From the NCBI GenBank assembly GCA_013376995.1, contig JACAAZ010000012.1, positions 1 through 64,000 of the forward strand: a stretch of 64,000 bases of DNA, read 5' to 3'. Both the position numbers and the translations under genes were made by a program. Shown here piece after piece: positions 43,673-51,162 of the stretch (position 1 is the first letter of the stretch; each line of letters opens with the position of its first letter). Under the pieces are notes generated by a model that had not been told where the DNA came from, searched no databases, and saw nothing but the letters and a program-made list of their open reading frames with translations. This DNA comes from Bacteroidota bacterium. Lineage in GTDB: Bacteria; Bacteroidota; Bacteroidia; Bacteroidales; UBA4417.

Positions 43673-46600
43673 ATGAATTTGATAAAATCAATCATTCTGC
43701 TGGTTTTCCTATCAATTGGAACTATTGTTCCGGCTCAGGCTGTTCATTTAGTGACAAACGAACTCGATAATGGTCCGGGAAGCCTTCGGTACTTGATTTC
43801 ACTGGCAGAGCAGGGTGATACGATTCACTTCGACAATTCCGTAAAAAATGTGGCACTCACATCAGGCCAGATTCAGATTGATAAATCAGTAAGCATTGTT
43901 GGAAATTCCGGGAATATTAAAATTACAAGGGATACTACATCCAGGTTCAGGATATTCGACATTGGAGTTTCCGGGGCAGGAATCAAAGTGATCATCAGAA
44001 ACCTGGATATCATGAATGGTATTACTGATATTGGCGATTCAGAAACAGGTGGTGGTATCAGGATCAATAGTCAGTATGACTCCGTTTTCCTTATTGGATG
44101 TAATATCCGGCAGAACCAGACAGGTTCCCCGGAAAGCCTGAGTTTCTATGTGGGTACAGGAAACGGTGGAGGGATCATGAATAACGGATTCTTATCAATG
44201 GATGATTGCCGGGTTGCGGATAACCTAACAGGCACACCTTTTTTCGGTGGTAATACCGGGGCCGGAGGTGGAATTTTCAATGCGGGCAGGTTGATCCTAA
44301 CAGATTGTTCAATTGAGTTCAACACAACAGGGTTAGGTTGTTTTTGGGCTGAGGAGTCAGGAGCGATTGGAGGTACCGGTGGAAACGGAGGTGGAATCGC
44401 AAATACCGGCAGCTTATTAATTATTTCTTCAAATATTGCTGATAACCTAACAGGAGCAGGAGGTACAGCAGATGCTCAGCATGCTTCAGCAATTGGTGGA
44501 AATGGAGGAGCCGGCGGCGGTATCTTTAATCTTGGCACAATGGAATTATTGAATGATCGAATCTCTGGTAATAAGACCGGGAACGGAGGAAATGCTAATG
44601 GCTGGCATGAATTTTCCTTTGGCGGAGATGGCGGAAAAGGCGGGGGTTGTTATAATACAGGAACCTGCAGGATGGTTAATTGTTTTATCCAGGAAAATGA
44701 AAGCGGGGAAGGCGAATTAACATCTAACGAAAGCGGAAATGGTGGAAACGGCGGAGGATTTTATAACAACCATATTACTAAAATCATTAATTGCCTTTTC
44801 AGTGCCAATAAAACCGGGAATAACCCAGCAGGTTCACAATCAGGCTACCCCGGGAATGGTGCAGGTATTTTTAATTCCACTCCTTCCGTTTCGCTTGACA
44901 TAATTAACTCAACAATAAGCGGAAATACAATCCCACTTAGCTGTCATTCCGGCCAGGGCGGAGGATTGTTCAACGAATCAAATTACTCCCATATTCAAAA
45001 CTCCATATTCTATAATAATTCTGTAAACCAAACTATCCCCAGTGACATCAAAGGGTTGTTCATATCGAGGTATTCGCTGATAGGTACAGTTGAAGGCAGT
45101 TTTCAACATGATACAACCTGTATTTATTATACCGATCCTTTATTTATTAGTTATCCCTATGACTTCAGACTTCAGTCAGGCAGTCCTGCAATCAATGCTG
45201 CCAACCCCGATACAGCGAACCTGGGCCTTCCTTTAACTGACATAGGCCTTAGGCCAAGAATTGTAAGGGATACCCTTGATATTGGAGCCTATGAAAGACA
45301 AATTGCTGAAAACGACAACATTTATCTGCAGCCTGAGCATATTACTTTTCCAACCATTGAAGTAGGTTCATTTGCATCAGGCAACATGAATCTCATAATT
45401 ACCGGGGAACACCCGGCTATTATAGATTCCATCACTTCGAGTGATGATTTCAGGTTACAAATTCCCGGACAAACAAGTTGGTCAACCAGGCTCTGCAATC
45501 TAAATCTTCCGCCAGGTGCTCATCCTGTCAATATTCGTTTTCAGCCTTTTCACTCTGGCTCTTATGAATATTACATTCAACTATATTACCATGATGATTC
45601 CGTTTCCAAAACAACAGGTATATACGTGAGCGGGGCAGCAGAATATTGCAATGCACTGTCTGGTGACATACTTCAGGATACTACATGGCAGGATTGCATA
45701 ACCCTGGTAGGAAATGTGAAAGTGAAAAAATCCTTTACCCTTCACATTGCCCCGGGTACTAAGGTCAAGGCTGCCGGCCCTTATGAAATCCAGGTAGACG
45801 GTATGATCCTTGCCTCCGGTACTGCAAGCCAGCCAATTGAATTCTCAGGCATTTCATTGAATGATACGCTTAATATTTCCTGGAATGGGATCCACCTGCG
45901 GAAACCTACAAACGAACTTTACTCAACATATTCATTTTTAGATTATTGTACCATCAGAGATGTGAATAAACAGACAGGGTCAGGGGCAATTTACCTGGAA
46001 TATAACCACCTGCCAGGTTTGATTGATATAAGTAACTGCCAGTTTGAAAATAACAGGACCACTTCCCCATTAACTGGAGGTGCAGCTATCTTTAAGCATG
46101 ATGGTGAGAAATGCAATCTCAGTATCACCAATACAATATTCAGAAATAATTCGGCCATTCTGGGCGGAGGAGCATATTTCTCAGATGCCGAAGGCACCGA
46201 TAACGTGACGACTATAACAAACAGCCTTTTCAATCATAACAGTTGCGCCTCAGGAAATGCAGGTTCAGCTCTTGCAGGTGCATACTCTGATAAACTCACG
46301 AATTGCACATTCTTCGGTAACCCTTATCCATCAATAACCGGCAACAACGTTATCATCCAAAACTGCCTCTTCTGGCCATCGGAAGTGAATTCAACAAACC
46401 TGGTTAACGCACAGGTATCCTATTCAAATATTGGGATGGGTTACCCTGATTTTGCAGATACAAGCCAATACGATTATCATCTCTTGCCTGCCTCATACGC
46501 CATTGATGCAGGAAATCCTGCTACAATAACTGTATCGGCTGACCTTGATGGCAATCCCAGGATCTCCGGGCCTATTATTGACCTGGGATGTTTTGAATAC

Positions 46601-47209
46601 CAAAGGGTATATCAGCAATTGATCGAAGTCCTCCCGGAATCATTGGATCTTTATACTACCCTGAATAAGGAAGTTTTTTTATTTAACATGGTTATCCGGA
46701 ACAAAGGAATTGAGCCATTAACTATTGATTCTATATGCCTGCCGGCCGGGTTTTGGCTGAACGACTCGCATGATGGTTGGGCGAATCCGCTAAAAGGACT
46801 TATTATTGGGCCTAACAGTTTAAGTATGCCTGTTGTGAGATTCTTACCCGATAAAGATACAGTGTACTCTGGATACATAACATTCTATAGTAATTCTCAA
46901 ATTGACAGCATACTCAGCATATCTGTCCACGGCCATGTATCGCCTTCAGGTATTAGCGATCAGGAGGCAACCGGAAATGACTTCACCATTTCGCCAAACC
47001 CAACAACGGGTTTCGTTTCTTTTTGCCGGTTGACAAATGTGAAACAACTCGAAATCGCTGACATGAAAGGAATTGTTCAACTTGCCATCCCTCTGTGGAA
47101 ACCTAAAGAAACAGCAACTGTTGACCTGCGTAAACTAAATAAAGGAATGTACCTGGTTAAGCTCATATTTGATGATAAAATTGTTACAAGAAAATTGATA
47201 TTACAGTAA
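43673..47209 (+). CDS. Large beta-helix surface protein with T9SS sorting domain
   Basis: A 1178-residue exported protein with a signal peptide (IILLVFLSIGTIVPAQAVH). Residues about 50-480 hold parallel beta-helix turns with repeated Gly/Asn-rich coils such as GNGGGI and GGNGGGIANTGSL. Two choice-of-anchor-Q-like segments (INAANPDTANLGLPLTDIGLR near 500 and IDAGNPATITVSADLDGNPR near 940) end the two halves. The last 80 residues are a T9SS type A sorting domain (GISDQEATGNDFTISPNPTTGFVSF, LRKLNKGMYLVKLIFDDKIVTRKLILQ). Likely a surface adhesin or polysaccharide-binding protein exported by the GldKLMN system. The ligand is unknown. Confidence 0.85.
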   Translation: MNLIKSIILLVFLSIGTIVPAQAVHLVTNELDNGPGSLRYLISLAEQGDTIHFDNSVKNVALTSGQIQIDKSVSIVGNSGNIKITRDTTSRFRIFDIGVSGAGIKVIIRNLDIMNGITDIGDSETGGGIRINSQYDSVFLIGCNIRQNQTGSPESLSFYVGTGNGGGIMNNGFLSMDDCRVADNLTGTPFFGGNTGAGGGIFNAGRLILTDCSIEFNTTGLGCFWAEESGAIGGTGGNGGGIANTGSLLIISSNIADNLTGAGGTADAQHASAIGGNGGAGGGIFNLGTMELLNDRISGNKTGNGGNANGWHEFSFGGDGGKGGGCYNTGTCRMVNCFIQENESGEGELTSNESGNGGNGGGFYNNHITKIINCLFSANKTGNNPAGSQSGYPGNGAGIFNSTPSVSLDIINSTISGNTIPLSCHSGQGGGLFNESNYSHIQNSIFYNNSVNQTIPSDIKGLFISRYSLIGTVEGSFQHDTTCIYYTDPLFISYPYDFRLQSGSPAINAANPDTANLGLPLTDIGLRPRIVRDTLDIGAYERQIAENDNIYLQPEHITFPTIEVGSFASGNMNLIITGEHPAIIDSITSSDDFRLQIPGQTSWSTRLCNLNLPPGAHPVNIRFQPFHSGSYEYYIQLYYHDDSVSKTTGIYVSGAAEYCNALSGDILQDTTWQDCITLVGNVKVKKSFTLHIAPGTKVKAAGPYEIQVDGMILASGTASQPIEFSGISLNDTLNISWNGIHLRKPTNELYSTYSFLDYCTIRDVNKQTGSGAIYLEYNHLPGLIDISNCQFENNRTTSPLTGGAAIFKHDGEKCNLSITNTIFRNNSAILGGGAYFSDAEGTDNVTTITNSLFNHNSCASGNAGSALAGAYSDKLTNCTFFGNPYPSITGNNVIIQNCLFWPSEVNSTNLVNAQVSYSNIGMGYPDFADTSQYDYHLLPASYAIDAGNPATITVSADLDGNPRISGPIIDLGCFEYQRVYQQLIEVLPESLDLYTTLNKEVFLFNMVIRNKGIEPLTIDSICLPAGFWLNDSHDGWANPLKGLIIGPNSLSMPVVRFLPDKDTVYSGYITFYSNSQIDSILSISVHGHVSPSGISDQEATGNDFTISPNPTTGFVSFCRLTNVKQLEIADMKGIVQLAIPLWKPKETATVDLRKLNKGMYLVKLIFDDKIVTRKLILQ

Positions 47210-47313
47210 ATTCTATGATTGACCACTAACCGCAATTGAAAAGCTTTCTTTCAAAAAAGCTGATGAATATTTAAAAATATCTCAAATGGGATTCGCAGGT
47301 AAACAATAAACAC

Positions 47314-47321
47314 TACTTTTG
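47314..47321 (+). promoter_or_regulatory. Promoter -7 element for the MgtE-N/NRAMP operon
   Basis: TACTTTTG. A TSS near 47328 gives a leader of about 110 nt before the preferred start at 47441. Confidence 0.5.
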
Positions 47322-47350
47322 CCACGAAAATTTCACCCAAAATGGACGAA

Positions 47351-47390
47351 GGCCCTGATTTATACCGAAAATTAACCTGATTTCAGGGTC
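47351..47390 (+). promoter_or_regulatory. Leader hairpin of the MgtE-N/NRAMP operon
   Basis: GGCCCTGA (47351-47358) pairs with TCAGGGTC (47383-47390), 8 bp including one G-U, around a 24-nt loop. It sits in the leader of a predicted metal-uptake operon. It is not an M-box or any riboswitch I recognise. Confidence 0.35.
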
Positions 47391-47440
47391 AGTAGGCAAT
47401 GCCTGCGTTCTCCCTGGAACAAAACATGGAGGATGCTTTT

Positions 47441-48715
47441 ATGACAGCATTGACCACATTCCACTTAAGCCGGCTTTTAGGAATTAAGCTGTATTCCGCT
47501 CAGAATGAGTATGTCGGAGTAATTCTCGATTTACTGATCGACAATAATCCCGATTCTGTAAAACCCGGAGAACCTTACCGGCCACGCATTGTAGCTGTAA
47601 AGACTGGTGCAAAATCCAGGCCTGTTTACTTTGATTTCCGCTATTTCGAAGTAAATCGCCTGAACAATAAATACGCAGTAATCTGCCGTGAAAAGCGGCA
47701 ACTTGATGAAAATACAGTACGGGATTACCTCCCTCTCATGGAAAGCATCCTGGACAAACAGATCGTCGACCTTAACGGTAAAAAACTGGTCAGGGTTAAC
47801 GACATCAGGATTGCGACAGTATCTGGCGGCACCTTTGTAATAGCTGTTGATGTGGGTGTTGAAGGCTTGCTCCGTCGTCTGGGTATTTCTAAGATTACAC
47901 GTCAGCTCTCCCAAATTTTCAGGTTCCAGATTCCTTCAAAGTTTATTCTTTGGGATGATGTAGACACACTTGATGCATCCAATCTTAACATTCGTCTTGG
48001 GAAAGCATCATCCAAACTTAAAACATTACACCCATCCGACCTGGCTGACATTATCGAAGAACTGGGTCACAGCAGCAGAACTGCAGTTTTCAGCAACCTG
48101 GATGAAGAACAGGCTGCTGATGTACTGGAAGAAATGGAACCCAGGAAGCAGGTAGACCTGATCGAGAGTTTGTCGGTTGCCAAAGCTGCAGATGTTCTGG
48201 AGAAGATGCCGGCGGATGAAGCAGCTGACATTCTAGATCTGCTCGAGGATGATAAAGCGGAGATATTATTGCGTGAAATGGATTCGGAGTCATCGGATGA
48301 GGTCAGGGAGTTGCTTGAATACTCCGATCAATCTGTTGGTAGTATTATGAGTACCGATTTTATTTCTTTTCATGAAAATGAAACCGTTGAACAGGCACTC
48401 ATCACCATCCGGGAAGCTAAACCTGAAGAAGCAGTTCTATACAATCTCTTTGTGGTGAACCATGGGGGTAAACTTCTTGCCACAGTTACATTGCGGGATC
48501 TAGTCGTTTCAGACCCCGGTGTCATTCTCAGGGAAATCATGCGAAAAAATCCTGTTTCGGTGCAGGATAAGGACAAGCTAGACTCCGTTGCAGAACTTGT
48601 TTCAAAGTACAATATGCTGGCCCTCCCGGTTGTAAATAACCATAATTTGCTAGAGGGCATGGTAGTTATTGATGATATTATAGAAGACCTTCTCGGTGCC
48701 CGTAAAACTAAATAA
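47441..48715 (+). CDS. MgtE N-domain and CBS-pair protein (soluble Mg2+-sensing module)
   Basis: A 424-residue cytoplasmic protein. I choose the ATG at 47441 because GGAGGAT lies 7-13 bp before it; an in-frame ATG at 47399 sits inside a small hairpin (AGGCAATGCCT). The N-terminal part (about 1-165) resembles a PRC-barrel/RimM-like module. From about 190 it carries the MgtE N-terminal superhelical domain (LHPSDLADIIEELG, LDEEQAADVLEEMEP, MPADEAADILDLLEDD). It ends with a CBS pair (SVGSIMSTDFISFHENETVEQAL and REIMRKNPVSVQDKDKL). In MgtE these domains sense cytosolic Mg2+ and gate the channel. Here the MgtE membrane domain is absent; the NRAMP-type carrier begins 22 bp downstream instead. Confidence 0.85.
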   Translation: MTALTTFHLSRLLGIKLYSAQNEYVGVILDLLIDNNPDSVKPGEPYRPRIVAVKTGAKSRPVYFDFRYFEVNRLNNKYAVICREKRQLDENTVRDYLPLMESILDKQIVDLNGKKLVRVNDIRIATVSGGTFVIAVDVGVEGLLRRLGISKITRQLSQIFRFQIPSKFILWDDVDTLDASNLNIRLGKASSKLKTLHPSDLADIIEELGHSSRTAVFSNLDEEQAADVLEEMEPRKQVDLIESLSVAKAADVLEKMPADEAADILDLLEDDKAEILLREMDSESSDEVRELLEYSDQSVGSIMSTDFISFHENETVEQALITIREAKPEEAVLYNLFVVNHGGKLLATVTLRDLVVSDPGVILREIMRKNPVSVQDKDKLDSVAELVSKYNMLALPVVNNHNLLEGMVVIDDIIEDLLGARKTK

Positions 48716-48720
48716 TTAAA

Positions 48721-48730
48721 GGAAGGAGGT
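48721..48730 (+). promoter_or_regulatory. Strong Shine-Dalgarno sequence of the NRAMP-type gene
   Basis: GGAAGGAGGT ends 7 bp before the ATG at 48738. It is nearly a perfect anti-SD match, which is rare in Bacteroidota, whose genes mostly lack strong SD sites. Confidence 0.65.
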
Positions 48731-48737
48731 CTAAGTC

Positions 48738-49982
48738 ATGAAAAGAAACCGAAAGATCGTTCTTCGGAATATCGCATTGTTTTTTGCTTTGCTGGGCCCG
48801 GGTATTATTACCGGGAGTGTTGATAATGATGCAGGTGGAATAACTACTTATTCAGTTGCAGGGGCTCTCTATGGCTATAAGCTTATCTGGACACTGATCC
48901 CGGCCTTTGTAGTTCTGCTGGTTATACAGGAGATGAATGCCCGCATGGGTATTGTAACAGGTAAAGGCCTGGCAGATCTCATAAGGGAGAATTCAGGTGT
49001 AAAAATCACATTCTTTATTTTTATCGGCTTACTGGTTGCAGATATAGGGAACACTACTACCGAATTTGCAGGGGTTGCAGGATCTATGCAAGTCTTTCAT
49101 ATTAGCAAATATATATCTGTACCAATTGCCGGGGTCCTGGTCTGGTTCCTTGTGGTAAAAGGGAACTACAGGATAGCAGAGAGAATTTTCCTTGTATTCA
49201 GTGTAGCATTGCTAATGTATATAGTTTCAGCTATTATGGGCAAACCACACTGGCACGAAATCGGTCAATCCATTGTCAAACCACAATTGGAATTAAACAC
49301 CACCTACCTGGCAATGGTAATTGGCATTATCGGCACAACCATTGCACCATGGATGCAATTCTATATGCAATCTTCCGTGATTGAAAAAGGGCTGAAAATG
49401 AAAGACTACCGAATTACCATGCTGGATATTGTAATTGGTTGCCTTGCTACTGTAATTGTGGCATTTTTTATCATGATAGCCTGTGCCTCTACCTTACATG
49501 AAAATGGGATTAAGATTAATGAAGCTAAAGATGCCGCATTAGCCCTTAAACCATTGGCTGGTTTTCTTGCCTCTCAACTTTTTGCCTTCGGATTATTCGT
49601 TGCCTCCATCTTTTCGGCTACAATCCTTCCATTGGCAACTGCTTTTTACGTATGTGAGGCATTTGGGTTCGAAGCGGGCATAGACAAAAAATGGGAAGAA
49701 GCACCGGAATTTTATTGGTTATATACAGGTATCCTTATCCTGGCAGCTGGAATTATCCTGATTCCCAATGCCCCGCTGATCCGCATCAGCCTTTGGTCAC
49801 AGGTTATCAACGGGCTGCTCCTTCCGGTTGTATTAGTTTGCATGATACTGTTAATCAATAAGCAAAAGATCATGGGAAAATATGTGAATAGTATAGGCAC
49901 TAACCTTGTTGGGTGGACTACGGTTGCTATTCTTGTAATCCTATCAGTCTTGCTGTTGGTTCTGCCAGTATTCTCAAAATAA
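48738..49982 (+). CDS. SLC11/NRAMP-related transporter with altered metal-site motifs (NRMT-like, probable Mg2+)
   Basis: A 414-residue membrane protein with about eleven hydrophobic segments. It aligns with NRAMP/SLC11 carriers through GPG, AGALYGYKLIW and the later EMNARMGIVTGKGLADLIRE. The two motifs that bind transition metal are changed: the TM1 DPGN reads DAGG (in VDNDAGGITTYSV) and the TM6 MPH reads APW (in IGTTIAPWMQFYMQS). Losing the soft Met ligand argues against Mn2+/Fe2+ selectivity, as in the NRAMP-related magnesium transporters. The upstream gene, a free MgtE-N/CBS module, supports Mg2+ as the substrate. It ends before a 493-bp gap. Function is inferred. Confidence 0.78.
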   Translation: MKRNRKIVLRNIALFFALLGPGIITGSVDNDAGGITTYSVAGALYGYKLIWTLIPAFVVLLVIQEMNARMGIVTGKGLADLIRENSGVKITFFIFIGLLVADIGNTTTEFAGVAGSMQVFHISKYISVPIAGVLVWFLVVKGNYRIAERIFLVFSVALLMYIVSAIMGKPHWHEIGQSIVKPQLELNTTYLAMVIGIIGTTIAPWMQFYMQSSVIEKGLKMKDYRITMLDIVIGCLATVIVAFFIMIACASTLHENGIKINEAKDAALALKPLAGFLASQLFAFGLFVASIFSATILPLATAFYVCEAFGFEAGIDKKWEEAPEFYWLYTGILILAAGIILIPNAPLIRISLWSQVINGLLLPVVLVCMILLINKQKIMGKYVNSIGTNLVGWTTVAILVILSVLLLVLPVFSK

Positions 49983-50475
49983 CCGGACAATATAGATATA
50001 TATATCTAAGCAAGGGTTTCAACTTTACAATACATGAACCTTCTTTCGGCTCTGTACACAAATTGTCCTTTTCAAAGTAATTATGTCAATATATTTGGAT
50101 ATTTAATAAGATATTATTTAATTTGATGCTATTATAGGGGCCTCAAACCCAACAAAGAAGAAGATACTGTAGAAATATGGCTATCCTTGAGCTTATATCA
50201 TTCTAAAGTTGAATTGATTACTAAACTATTGAAGTGAAGGTATAATAATTTGTAAAAAATGTTATTAATAGAATAGTTGTATTATATTTGTACTTTCTTT
50301 AACGAATAGTTACGCAGCTTGTTATTTGTTTATCACATCTGCCTAATACTGTGTTTGTTATACTATTTTCAAAACATCATGCATCTGGTGGGCGAACATA
50401 TCCAATGTATTTATTGTTTCTTGTTCGTTGGTGCGATGTTTTACAACATTAATCCTTAATTCATACCATTAATCC
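49983..50475. other. 493-bp AT-rich gap before the NYN-domain gene
   Basis: It begins with a 16-bp AT palindrome (TAGATATATATATCTA, 49993-50008). A TAnnTTTG element for the next gene lies at 50283-50290. No coding frame or RNA recognised. Confidence 0.7.
50283..50290 (+). promoter_or_regulatory. Promoter -7 element for the NYN-domain gene
   Basis: TATATTTG. This would give a leader of about 180 nt. No TTG at the expected distance. Confidence 0.4.
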
Positions 50476-51162
50476 ATGGAAGAGAAAATTAAAAAAATCG
50501 CGATGTTTATCGACGGGACTTTCTTTTTGAAAGTTAACTCGTACTATCGGTATCATCACGAAAGAAAAAGCACAATCAATTTTAACGGGCTTGCCGAATT
50601 CCTGCGTGATGAAGTATCAAAACTTGAAGGTTCTGATAAAAGATATTGCCAGGTGGTAGAAGTGCATTGGTTCAGAGGAAGATACTCAACCAGCCAGCTC
50701 GAAAAAAAGTATCCTGACGACACCTATCGTTTGACCCAAATGACCAATGAACGTAGGATTGACGACATCTTTATGTATGAAGGTATTGTTACTCACAACT
50801 ATCCACTCTTGGTTGACTCCCGTACCGGTGAAGCAGAAGAAAAAGGTATTGACGTATGGTTTTCACTCGAAACCTATGAACTCACTATTCTTAAGAAGTT
50901 TGATGTAGTTGTTCTGATTGCTGGAGATACAGATTATGTTCCCCTCATCAGGAAGATCAACGGCCTCGGCACACGTGTTATGGTGTTGGGCTGGGATTTC
51001 AACTATGAAACCACCTCATCAGCAGGCAGGACCTATAAGGTTACTACACGCACTAGCCAGGCCCTGATTGATGAATGTGTCTATCCTATTATGATGGATA
51101 AACGAATAGACGACCGAACCAGTAAAAATGATCCTATCGTAAGTGCATTATTCAATGTCTGA
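50476..51162 (+). CDS. NYN-domain (LabA/DUF88-like) putative ribonuclease
   Basis: A 228-residue cytoplasmic protein of the NYN/PIN-like nuclease fold. Acidic residues expected to bind metal are seen in AMFIDGTFF (Asp near 12), EEKGIDVWFSLE (Asp near 122) and LIAGDTDYVPLI (two Asp near 150). A VMVLGWDFNYETTSS segment follows. NYN proteins are thought to be RNases acting on structured RNA or rRNA. The frame stops at TGA (51160-51162) but then continues open for 23 codons to a TAA at 51232 (see findings). It ends with a terminator at 51248. Confidence 0.82.
   Translation: MEEKIKKIAMFIDGTFFLKVNSYYRYHHERKSTINFNGLAEFLRDEVSKLEGSDKRYCQVVEVHWFRGRYSTSQLEKKYPDDTYRLTQMTNERRIDDIFMYEGIVTHNYPLLVDSRTGEAEEKGIDVWFSLETYELTILKKFDVVVLIAGDTDYVPLIRKINGLGTRVMVLGWDFNYETTSSAGRTYKVTTRTSQALIDECVYPIMMDKRIDDRTSKNDPIVSALFNV

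Follow-up and report, generated by a model that had tools for sequence, protein, structure and literature searches.

An MgtE-like regulator with a PRC-barrel region, encoded beside an NRMT-type SLC11 carrier in Bacteroidota: a candidate magnesium uptake system

In a 64,000-nucleotide stretch of Bacteroidota DNA (the window, by which we mean the whole stretch analysed), a gene for a regulator that resembles the cytosolic part of the MgtE magnesium channel lies directly upstream of a gene for an SLC11 carrier of the NRMT type. The two genes probably encode a Mg2+ uptake system, in which an NRMT would be slowed or stopped by a Mg2+-responsive regulator held at the carrier. The pair is a new member of a pairing known since 2014, and the idea of feedback is likewise not new: Shin et al. 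reported that a homologue of the MgtE cytoplasmic domain adjoins most NrmT genes, many of them under riboswitch control, and speculated on a feedback or chaperone role for it (PMC4072509). What we add is the near-obligatory linkage of the two genes, their inverted order in many Bacteroidota, the PRC-containing regulator family, its retention of most of the Mg4, Mg6 and Mg7 acids, and the absence of M-boxes at those Bacteroidota pairs that could be checked. A literature search across titles and the openings of abstracts, with subscription papers mostly outside it, returned no report of a later test of the MgtE-like gene and no paper treating a PRC barrel and MgtE together.

A regulator and a carrier encoded side by side

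Both open frames of the pair described in the initial annotation are present, 22 bp apart: the sensor stop codon occupies 48713-48715, and the carrier ATG follows at 48738. The first open reading frame as listed opens at 47399; we took its start as the ATG at 47441, because the alignment of relatives begins there and M1 is invariant in 33 aligned rows. The features of the locus are as follows.

47441..48715, + strand: PRC/MgtE_N/CBS-CBS regulator (sensor), 424 aa plus stop
47441..47707, + strand: first PRC-like barrel, about aa 1-89 (Pfam PRC, family matches, model strands)
47723..47965, + strand: second strand-rich region, about aa 95-175, conserved core aa 99-148 (alignment, model)
48017..48328, + strand: MgtE N-domain superhelix, aa 193-296; Mg2+-site acids D227, D259 and D263 kept
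48338..48694, + strand: CBS pair, aa 300-418; D412 kept, Mg5-site positions N391 and E415
48716..48737, + strand: 22-bp intergenic stretch with a Shine-Dalgarno-like AAGGAAGGAGG ahead of the carrier start
48738..49982, + strand: NRMT-type SLC11 carrier, 414 aa plus stop (Pfam, motifs, tree)
48816..48839, + strand: TM1 metal-site region of the carrier, SVDNDAGG, aa 27-34 (motif alignment)
49332..49352, + strand: TM6 metal-site region of the carrier, GTTIAPW, aa 199-205 (motif alignment)

Just upstream, 43673-47209 encodes a protein of 1178 aa that carries a secretion-system C-terminal sorting domain, with nothing to suggest that it is connected to the pair.

Pfam agrees with the initial reading of the first gene as a PRC-like start, an MgtE N-domain and a CBS pair with no channel domain. 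The sensor matches PRC at 27.2 bits (cut-off 21.2, aligned over aa 6-35 only), MgtE_N at 90.5 bits (cut-off 25.9) and two CBS domains at 66.9 bits (cut-off 24), and the MgtE channel domain PF01769 was absent from the 424-aa protein. At E up to 0.01, 67 of 72 members of the sensor family match PRC. None of the MgtE-type matches listed has a counterpart of the N-terminal half; judged by sequence, the sensors form a separate family, set apart by an N-terminal PRC-barrel region that those matches miss. The E-values, together with adjacency conserved in relatives, exclude chance.

The structure model of the sensor (pLDDT 83, pTM 0.52) contains two regions rich in strands, and its linker at residues 175-190 is of low confidence; the strand pattern suggests that the second region may be a second PRC barrel. 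The C-terminal half folds like the cytosolic domains of MgtE, which head both the Foldseek list (E 1.8e-20) and the VIA list (Z 24.3-26.8 across 228-251 residues). MgtE and CBS chains take up the rows shown, and none of these is a PRC barrel, but the PRC part was barely probed in these searches. Like Thermus thermophilus MgtE (PDB 2yvy, 2zy9), the sensor comprises an N-domain superhelix followed by a CBS pair, with most of the Mg4, Mg6 and Mg7 acids in place. Unlike MgtE, it has neither channel domain nor plug helix, has mostly lost the Mg5 acids and carries the extra PRC-barrel region.

In MgtE, D91 and D247 belong to site Mg4, D95 to Mg6, E59 to Mg7, and D226 and D250 to Mg5, and mutating any of the sites Mg2 to Mg7 prevents closure (PMC5882242). 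Across 72 sensors (32 of 33 close relatives and 40 of 60 further sensors), Asp occurs at the D91 position in 61, and at the D95 and D247 positions in 69 each, while the E59 position is Asp or Glu in 69. The Mg5 acids fare differently, with Asp at D226 in 13 of the 72 and an acidic residue at D250 in 43. Most of the cytosolic Mg2+ site set, and not all of it, is therefore kept. In sensors encoded downstream of their carrier, D91 is lost in all eight rows and Asp at D247 in three. By mean majority fraction, residues 1-88 (0.41) and 95-185 (0.579) are less conserved than MgtE_N (0.668), whereas the core at residues 99-148, picked after the alignment had been seen, reaches 0.684; D121 and R145 are invariant in all 72 rows.

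Class of the carrier and its place in the SLC11 tree

The carrier matches Pfam Nramp at 2e-96. Alignment with DraNramp bore out the motif changes noticed at the outset, DPGN to DAGG in TM1 and MPH to APW (within TTIAPW) in TM6. The top PDB match is EleNRMT (PDB 7qia) at 1.8e-112, followed by DraNramp at 6.2e-27. Like EleNRMT, the carrier has DAGG, TTIAPW, the helix-3 Glu and the helix-10 Gln, and it lacks a metal-site Met and the proton-path His residues; counted without a gap, as in EleNRMT, the helix-6b His positions are Trp and Met. Residue E109 is invariant in 33 rows. The NRMT signature, as given in PMC8806188, is DxxG in TM1, TxxA/T in TM6 and no metal-site Met, a pattern that the carrier follows with DAGG and TTIA; the DPGN and MPH of canonical Mn2+/Fe2+ NRAMPs are both missing. 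In the EleNRMT paper, the carrier was studied alone: CBS domains and an operon are absent from the main text, and none of its five mentions of MgtE concerns a partner gene (PMC8806188).

A maximum-likelihood tree of 47 rows, which took in 12 of 33 carriers from close relatives plus 29 of another 59, places the window carrier in a 21-row clade at 100/100. The M-box-bearing loci L026, L029, L113, L115, L117 and L119 share this clade, as does L030, a Clostridium with no M-box, so that six of the seven clade rows from Clostridia or the clostridial sample have an M-box. DraNramp, ScaDMT, BfraNramp and a clade-B Nramp from the carrier's own genome fall outside. A tree including a characterised NRMT had been proposed in the initial annotation, and here it sets the carrier apart from the canonical Nramps at 100/100, although the tree program warns that joins between long branches, including the canonical-NRMT split, may be spurious. 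EleNRMT joins a wider NRMT group at a modest 83/72, beside a very long row from contig C23 of the window genome.

Motifs and tree together uphold the initial view of the carrier as NRMT-like. We class it as an NRMT and not a Mn/Fe NRAMP, since EleNRMT is its best solved relative and its clade includes M-box-linked rows, and we predict its substrate to be mainly Mg2+.

Two other SLC11 proteins occur in the same genome. One, on contig C18, is a clade-B Nramp that keeps DPGN and MPH and is separate from the window carrier, so a Mn-type carrier is present apart from it. It is a close relative of BfraNramp (PDB 10ky), a clade-B Nramp which we identify as the protein of PMC12873925. BfraNramp, an SLC11 protein like the window carrier, keeps DPGN and MPH; the window carrier has neither motif and lies outside its group. 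The other (L003, G000:C23:169155-170264), a divergent protein with DPSG and GTTISPY on the very long branch, is neither a canonical Nramp nor a clear NRMT. In the assembly, which is 96.66 % complete, no MgtE channel domain and no other MgtE_N gene were found; there is one CorA.

Conservation of the pair and its association with magnesium

The sensor gene lies directly upstream of the carrier gene in 32 of 34 close relatives from named genome records, with gaps of -11 to +25 bp in 31 and of 394 bp in one. Of the two exceptions, L038 is cut by a contig end and L019 (L019:3270-4523) encodes a close carrier with no sensor within 3.2 kb upstream. Across 395 Bacteroidota genomes, 54 NRMT-like carriers score at least 290 bits (the next score is 256.8 bits), and a sensor adjoins 51 of them, sensor-first in 7 and carrier-first in 44. 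The three unpaired carriers are each close to a contig end (389, 424 and 615 bases away), and in every case the next frame already shows a match to the beginning of the sensor (49.7, 19.3 and 17.8 bits). Among the matches listed, sensor places in these genomes number at least 55 (51 full-length and 4 partial), of which 30 were given loci. At L049, L056, L064 and similar Bacteroidota loci, a carrier with NRMT motifs (about 290-312 bits) comes first and a PRC sensor second.

A clostridial sample, 398 genomes from the phylum to which Clostridium acidisoli belongs, holds 40 sensor places at 346 bits or more, 39 of them covering nearly the whole profile and one covering 96-420. MgtE-type matches there reach at most 240 bits and start at profile position 166 or later; in both surveys the shorter matches were called MgtE channels from match range and frame length alone. 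A carrier adjoins the sensor in 29 of the 30 loci fetched from the 40 places, split over two frames at L129, and the remaining sensor (L128:1501-2760) has no carrier within 1.5 kb on either side. The neighbourhood was thus found conserved as anticipated, and linkage of sensor and carrier is near obligatory. The initial annotation had also called for a survey of adjacent or fused genes: adjacency is widespread, and no natural fusion occurs among the rows listed, in which PRC-sensor and NRMT-like frames are at most 601 aa. An 849-aa frame listed for G455 has an MgtE-type match with no PRC part.

The carriers at L106-L112, L116, L118, L127, L130, L131, L133 and L135 of the clostridial sample read GTTITPW and not GTTIAPW. 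At L106-L112, such carriers (532-544 bits) stand beside sensors of the window-like type (about 600 bits), and partners may therefore have been exchanged. Sensor and carrier distances correlate at r 0.873 over 86 pairs, at 0.445 over 63 sensor-first pairs and at 0.638 over 43 near pairs, a value equalled in none of 2000 permutations. This comparison omitted L040 (a copy of the window), L129 (broken frame), L030 (the same as L123), and the cut or incomplete L011, L037 and L041. With agreement only moderate within sensor-first pairs, we rejected tree congruence as proof of co-evolution; these patterns suggest that the two genes usually move as a pair, with hints that partners have been exchanged. 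A linked-chain AlphaFold2 model of the pair gave a pTM of 0.61, an overall score with no interface scores, and low confidence at the joint (415-449).

An Rfam search of 46500-50500 (E up to 1) found no M-box at the window pair; the only other RNA, a sub-threshold match to RAGATH-35, was discarded. Many relatives of the carrier do stand behind M-box Mg2+ riboswitches, which bears out the suggested association with magnesium. In the clostridial sample, an M-box precedes the sensor in 21 of 30 loci (17 of 20 in L106-L125 and 4 of 10 in L126-L135). Among 17 relative loci searched, M-boxes occur at L026 and L029 and were not found at the other 15, nine of which are recorded as Bacteroidota, Bacteroidetes, Bacteroidales or Paludibacter; L008, with just 119 bases upstream, is uninformative. 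Nor was an M-box found in a further 10 Bacteroidota loci, of which the carrier-first L047, L049 and L056 are uninformative, as they begin inside or at the carrier. No M-box was found, then, at those of the searched Bacteroidota pairs that have usable upstream DNA. L136 also has an upstream M-box. Its operon (L136:1973-3347) encodes the sensor in two overlapping frames, the PRC part and then the MgtE_N/CBS part, and resembles the split reported by Shin et al. for C. acetobutylicum (PMC4072509). We did not accept this locus, in genome G524, as a domain split: the frames meet at profile position 208, and a frameshift, natural or from assembly, is equally likely.

Candidate mechanism and competing explanations

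The window pair resembles the NrmT pairs of Shin et al. in joining an NRMT gene to an adjacent homologue of the MgtE cytoplasmic domain. It differs in the M-box, which some of their members have, in its PRC-barrel part, on which the available text of that paper is silent, and in its host, the genes tested in 2014 being from Clostridium and Acidobacterium (PMC4072509). Clostridial NrmTs sustained growth of a Mg2+-transport mutant without the MgtE-like gene. The Acidobacterium capsulatum pair carrier was mainly a Mn2+ transporter: it fully rescued Mn2+ uptake and rescued the Mg2+ phenotype only with low millimolar Mg2+, a rescue that co-expression of the MgtE-like gene did not improve (PMC4072509). 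As this carrier favours Mn2+, the presence of a sensor alone is no proof of a Mg2+ system.

In the mechanism that we favour, the NRMT would import Mg2+, and probably Mn2+ too, uncoupled from protons. The soluble regulator would combine the gating module of MgtE, its N-domain and CBS pair, with a PRC-barrel region at the N-terminus. As cytosolic Mg2+ rises, Mg2+ would occupy the kept sites of the N-domain and CBS pair and the module would compact; the Mg2+-bound regulator, held at the carrier, would then slow or stop uptake as post-translational feedback. Contact between regulator and carrier is predicted, and the PRC part, the N-terminal half of the protein, may serve as the dock. We infer the inhibitory sign by analogy, because MgtE offers the precedent, clostridial carriers function in the absence of the gene, and co-expressing the A. 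capsulatum gene brought no improvement (PMC4072509). With growth supported by clostridial NrmTs in the absence of the gene, a brake therefore fits better than a required subunit (PMC4072509). Against this mechanism stand the missing plug helix, the loss of most Mg5 acids and, in the carrier-first group, of D91 and in part of D247, the A. capsulatum results (PMC4072509), the moderate agreement of distances within sensor-first pairs, the L019 carrier with no sensor, the L128 sensor with no carrier and the lack of an M-box at L030. Against a PRC dock stands the lower conservation, relative to MgtE_N, of the first PRC region and of the second region taken whole.

The regulator could instead sense an adenine nucleotide through its CBS pair, or Mn2+, and tune the carrier accordingly, to energy state in the one case and to Mn2+ in the other, a reading that we consider unlikely. 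The CBS pair of MgtE binds ATP (PMC5529423), and the family has Arg at the R187 position in 60 of 72 sensors and Asp at the D188 position in 51; the Y170, N203 and F227 positions, however, are N, R and M in the window sensor, and the Mg4, Mg6 and Mg7 acids are better kept across the family than Y170 (43/72) or N203 (26/72). The Mn2+ preference of the A. capsulatum carrier (PMC4072509) suits the Mn2+ version, whereas the M-boxes upstream of many relatives speak against both versions.

PRC barrels are protein-binding modules, and the linkage of the genes would suit any partner role. The regulator might be a metal chaperone, the alternative given by Shin et al. (PMC4072509), or a partner that helps the carrier to assemble or to remain stable and does no gating. 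We rate this as quite unlikely: most Mg2+-site acids of the gating module are kept, and clostridial carriers function with no MgtE-like gene (PMC4072509). That the genes are merely co-transcribed for metal homeostasis, with the regulator acting on another target, seems highly improbable. The moderate agreement of sensor and carrier trees within sensor-first pairs and the orphans L128 (a sensor) and L019 (a carrier) would fit such an arrangement, yet adjacency persists through inverted gene order and distant taxa, and the window genome offers no MgtE channel domain to act on.

Feedback at the carrier remains our preferred reading, and a wider version of it can be put forward tentatively, with the balance somewhat against it: a portable Mg2+ brake, in which a tandem PRC adaptor, absent from the MgtE-type matches listed, would dock the MgtE module on the cytoplasmic face of an unrelated LeuT-fold carrier. 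A single soluble sensor family would then control several NRMT subtypes across phyla, providing the main feedback where there is no M-box. The 2014 work did not settle what the MgtE-like gene does next to NrmT, and the hypothesis can now be framed with named residues and domains. If it is true, the sensing module of a channel acts in trans on a differently folded carrier, and lineages without an M-box may rely on the regulator as the main Mg2+ feedback on the NRMT route.
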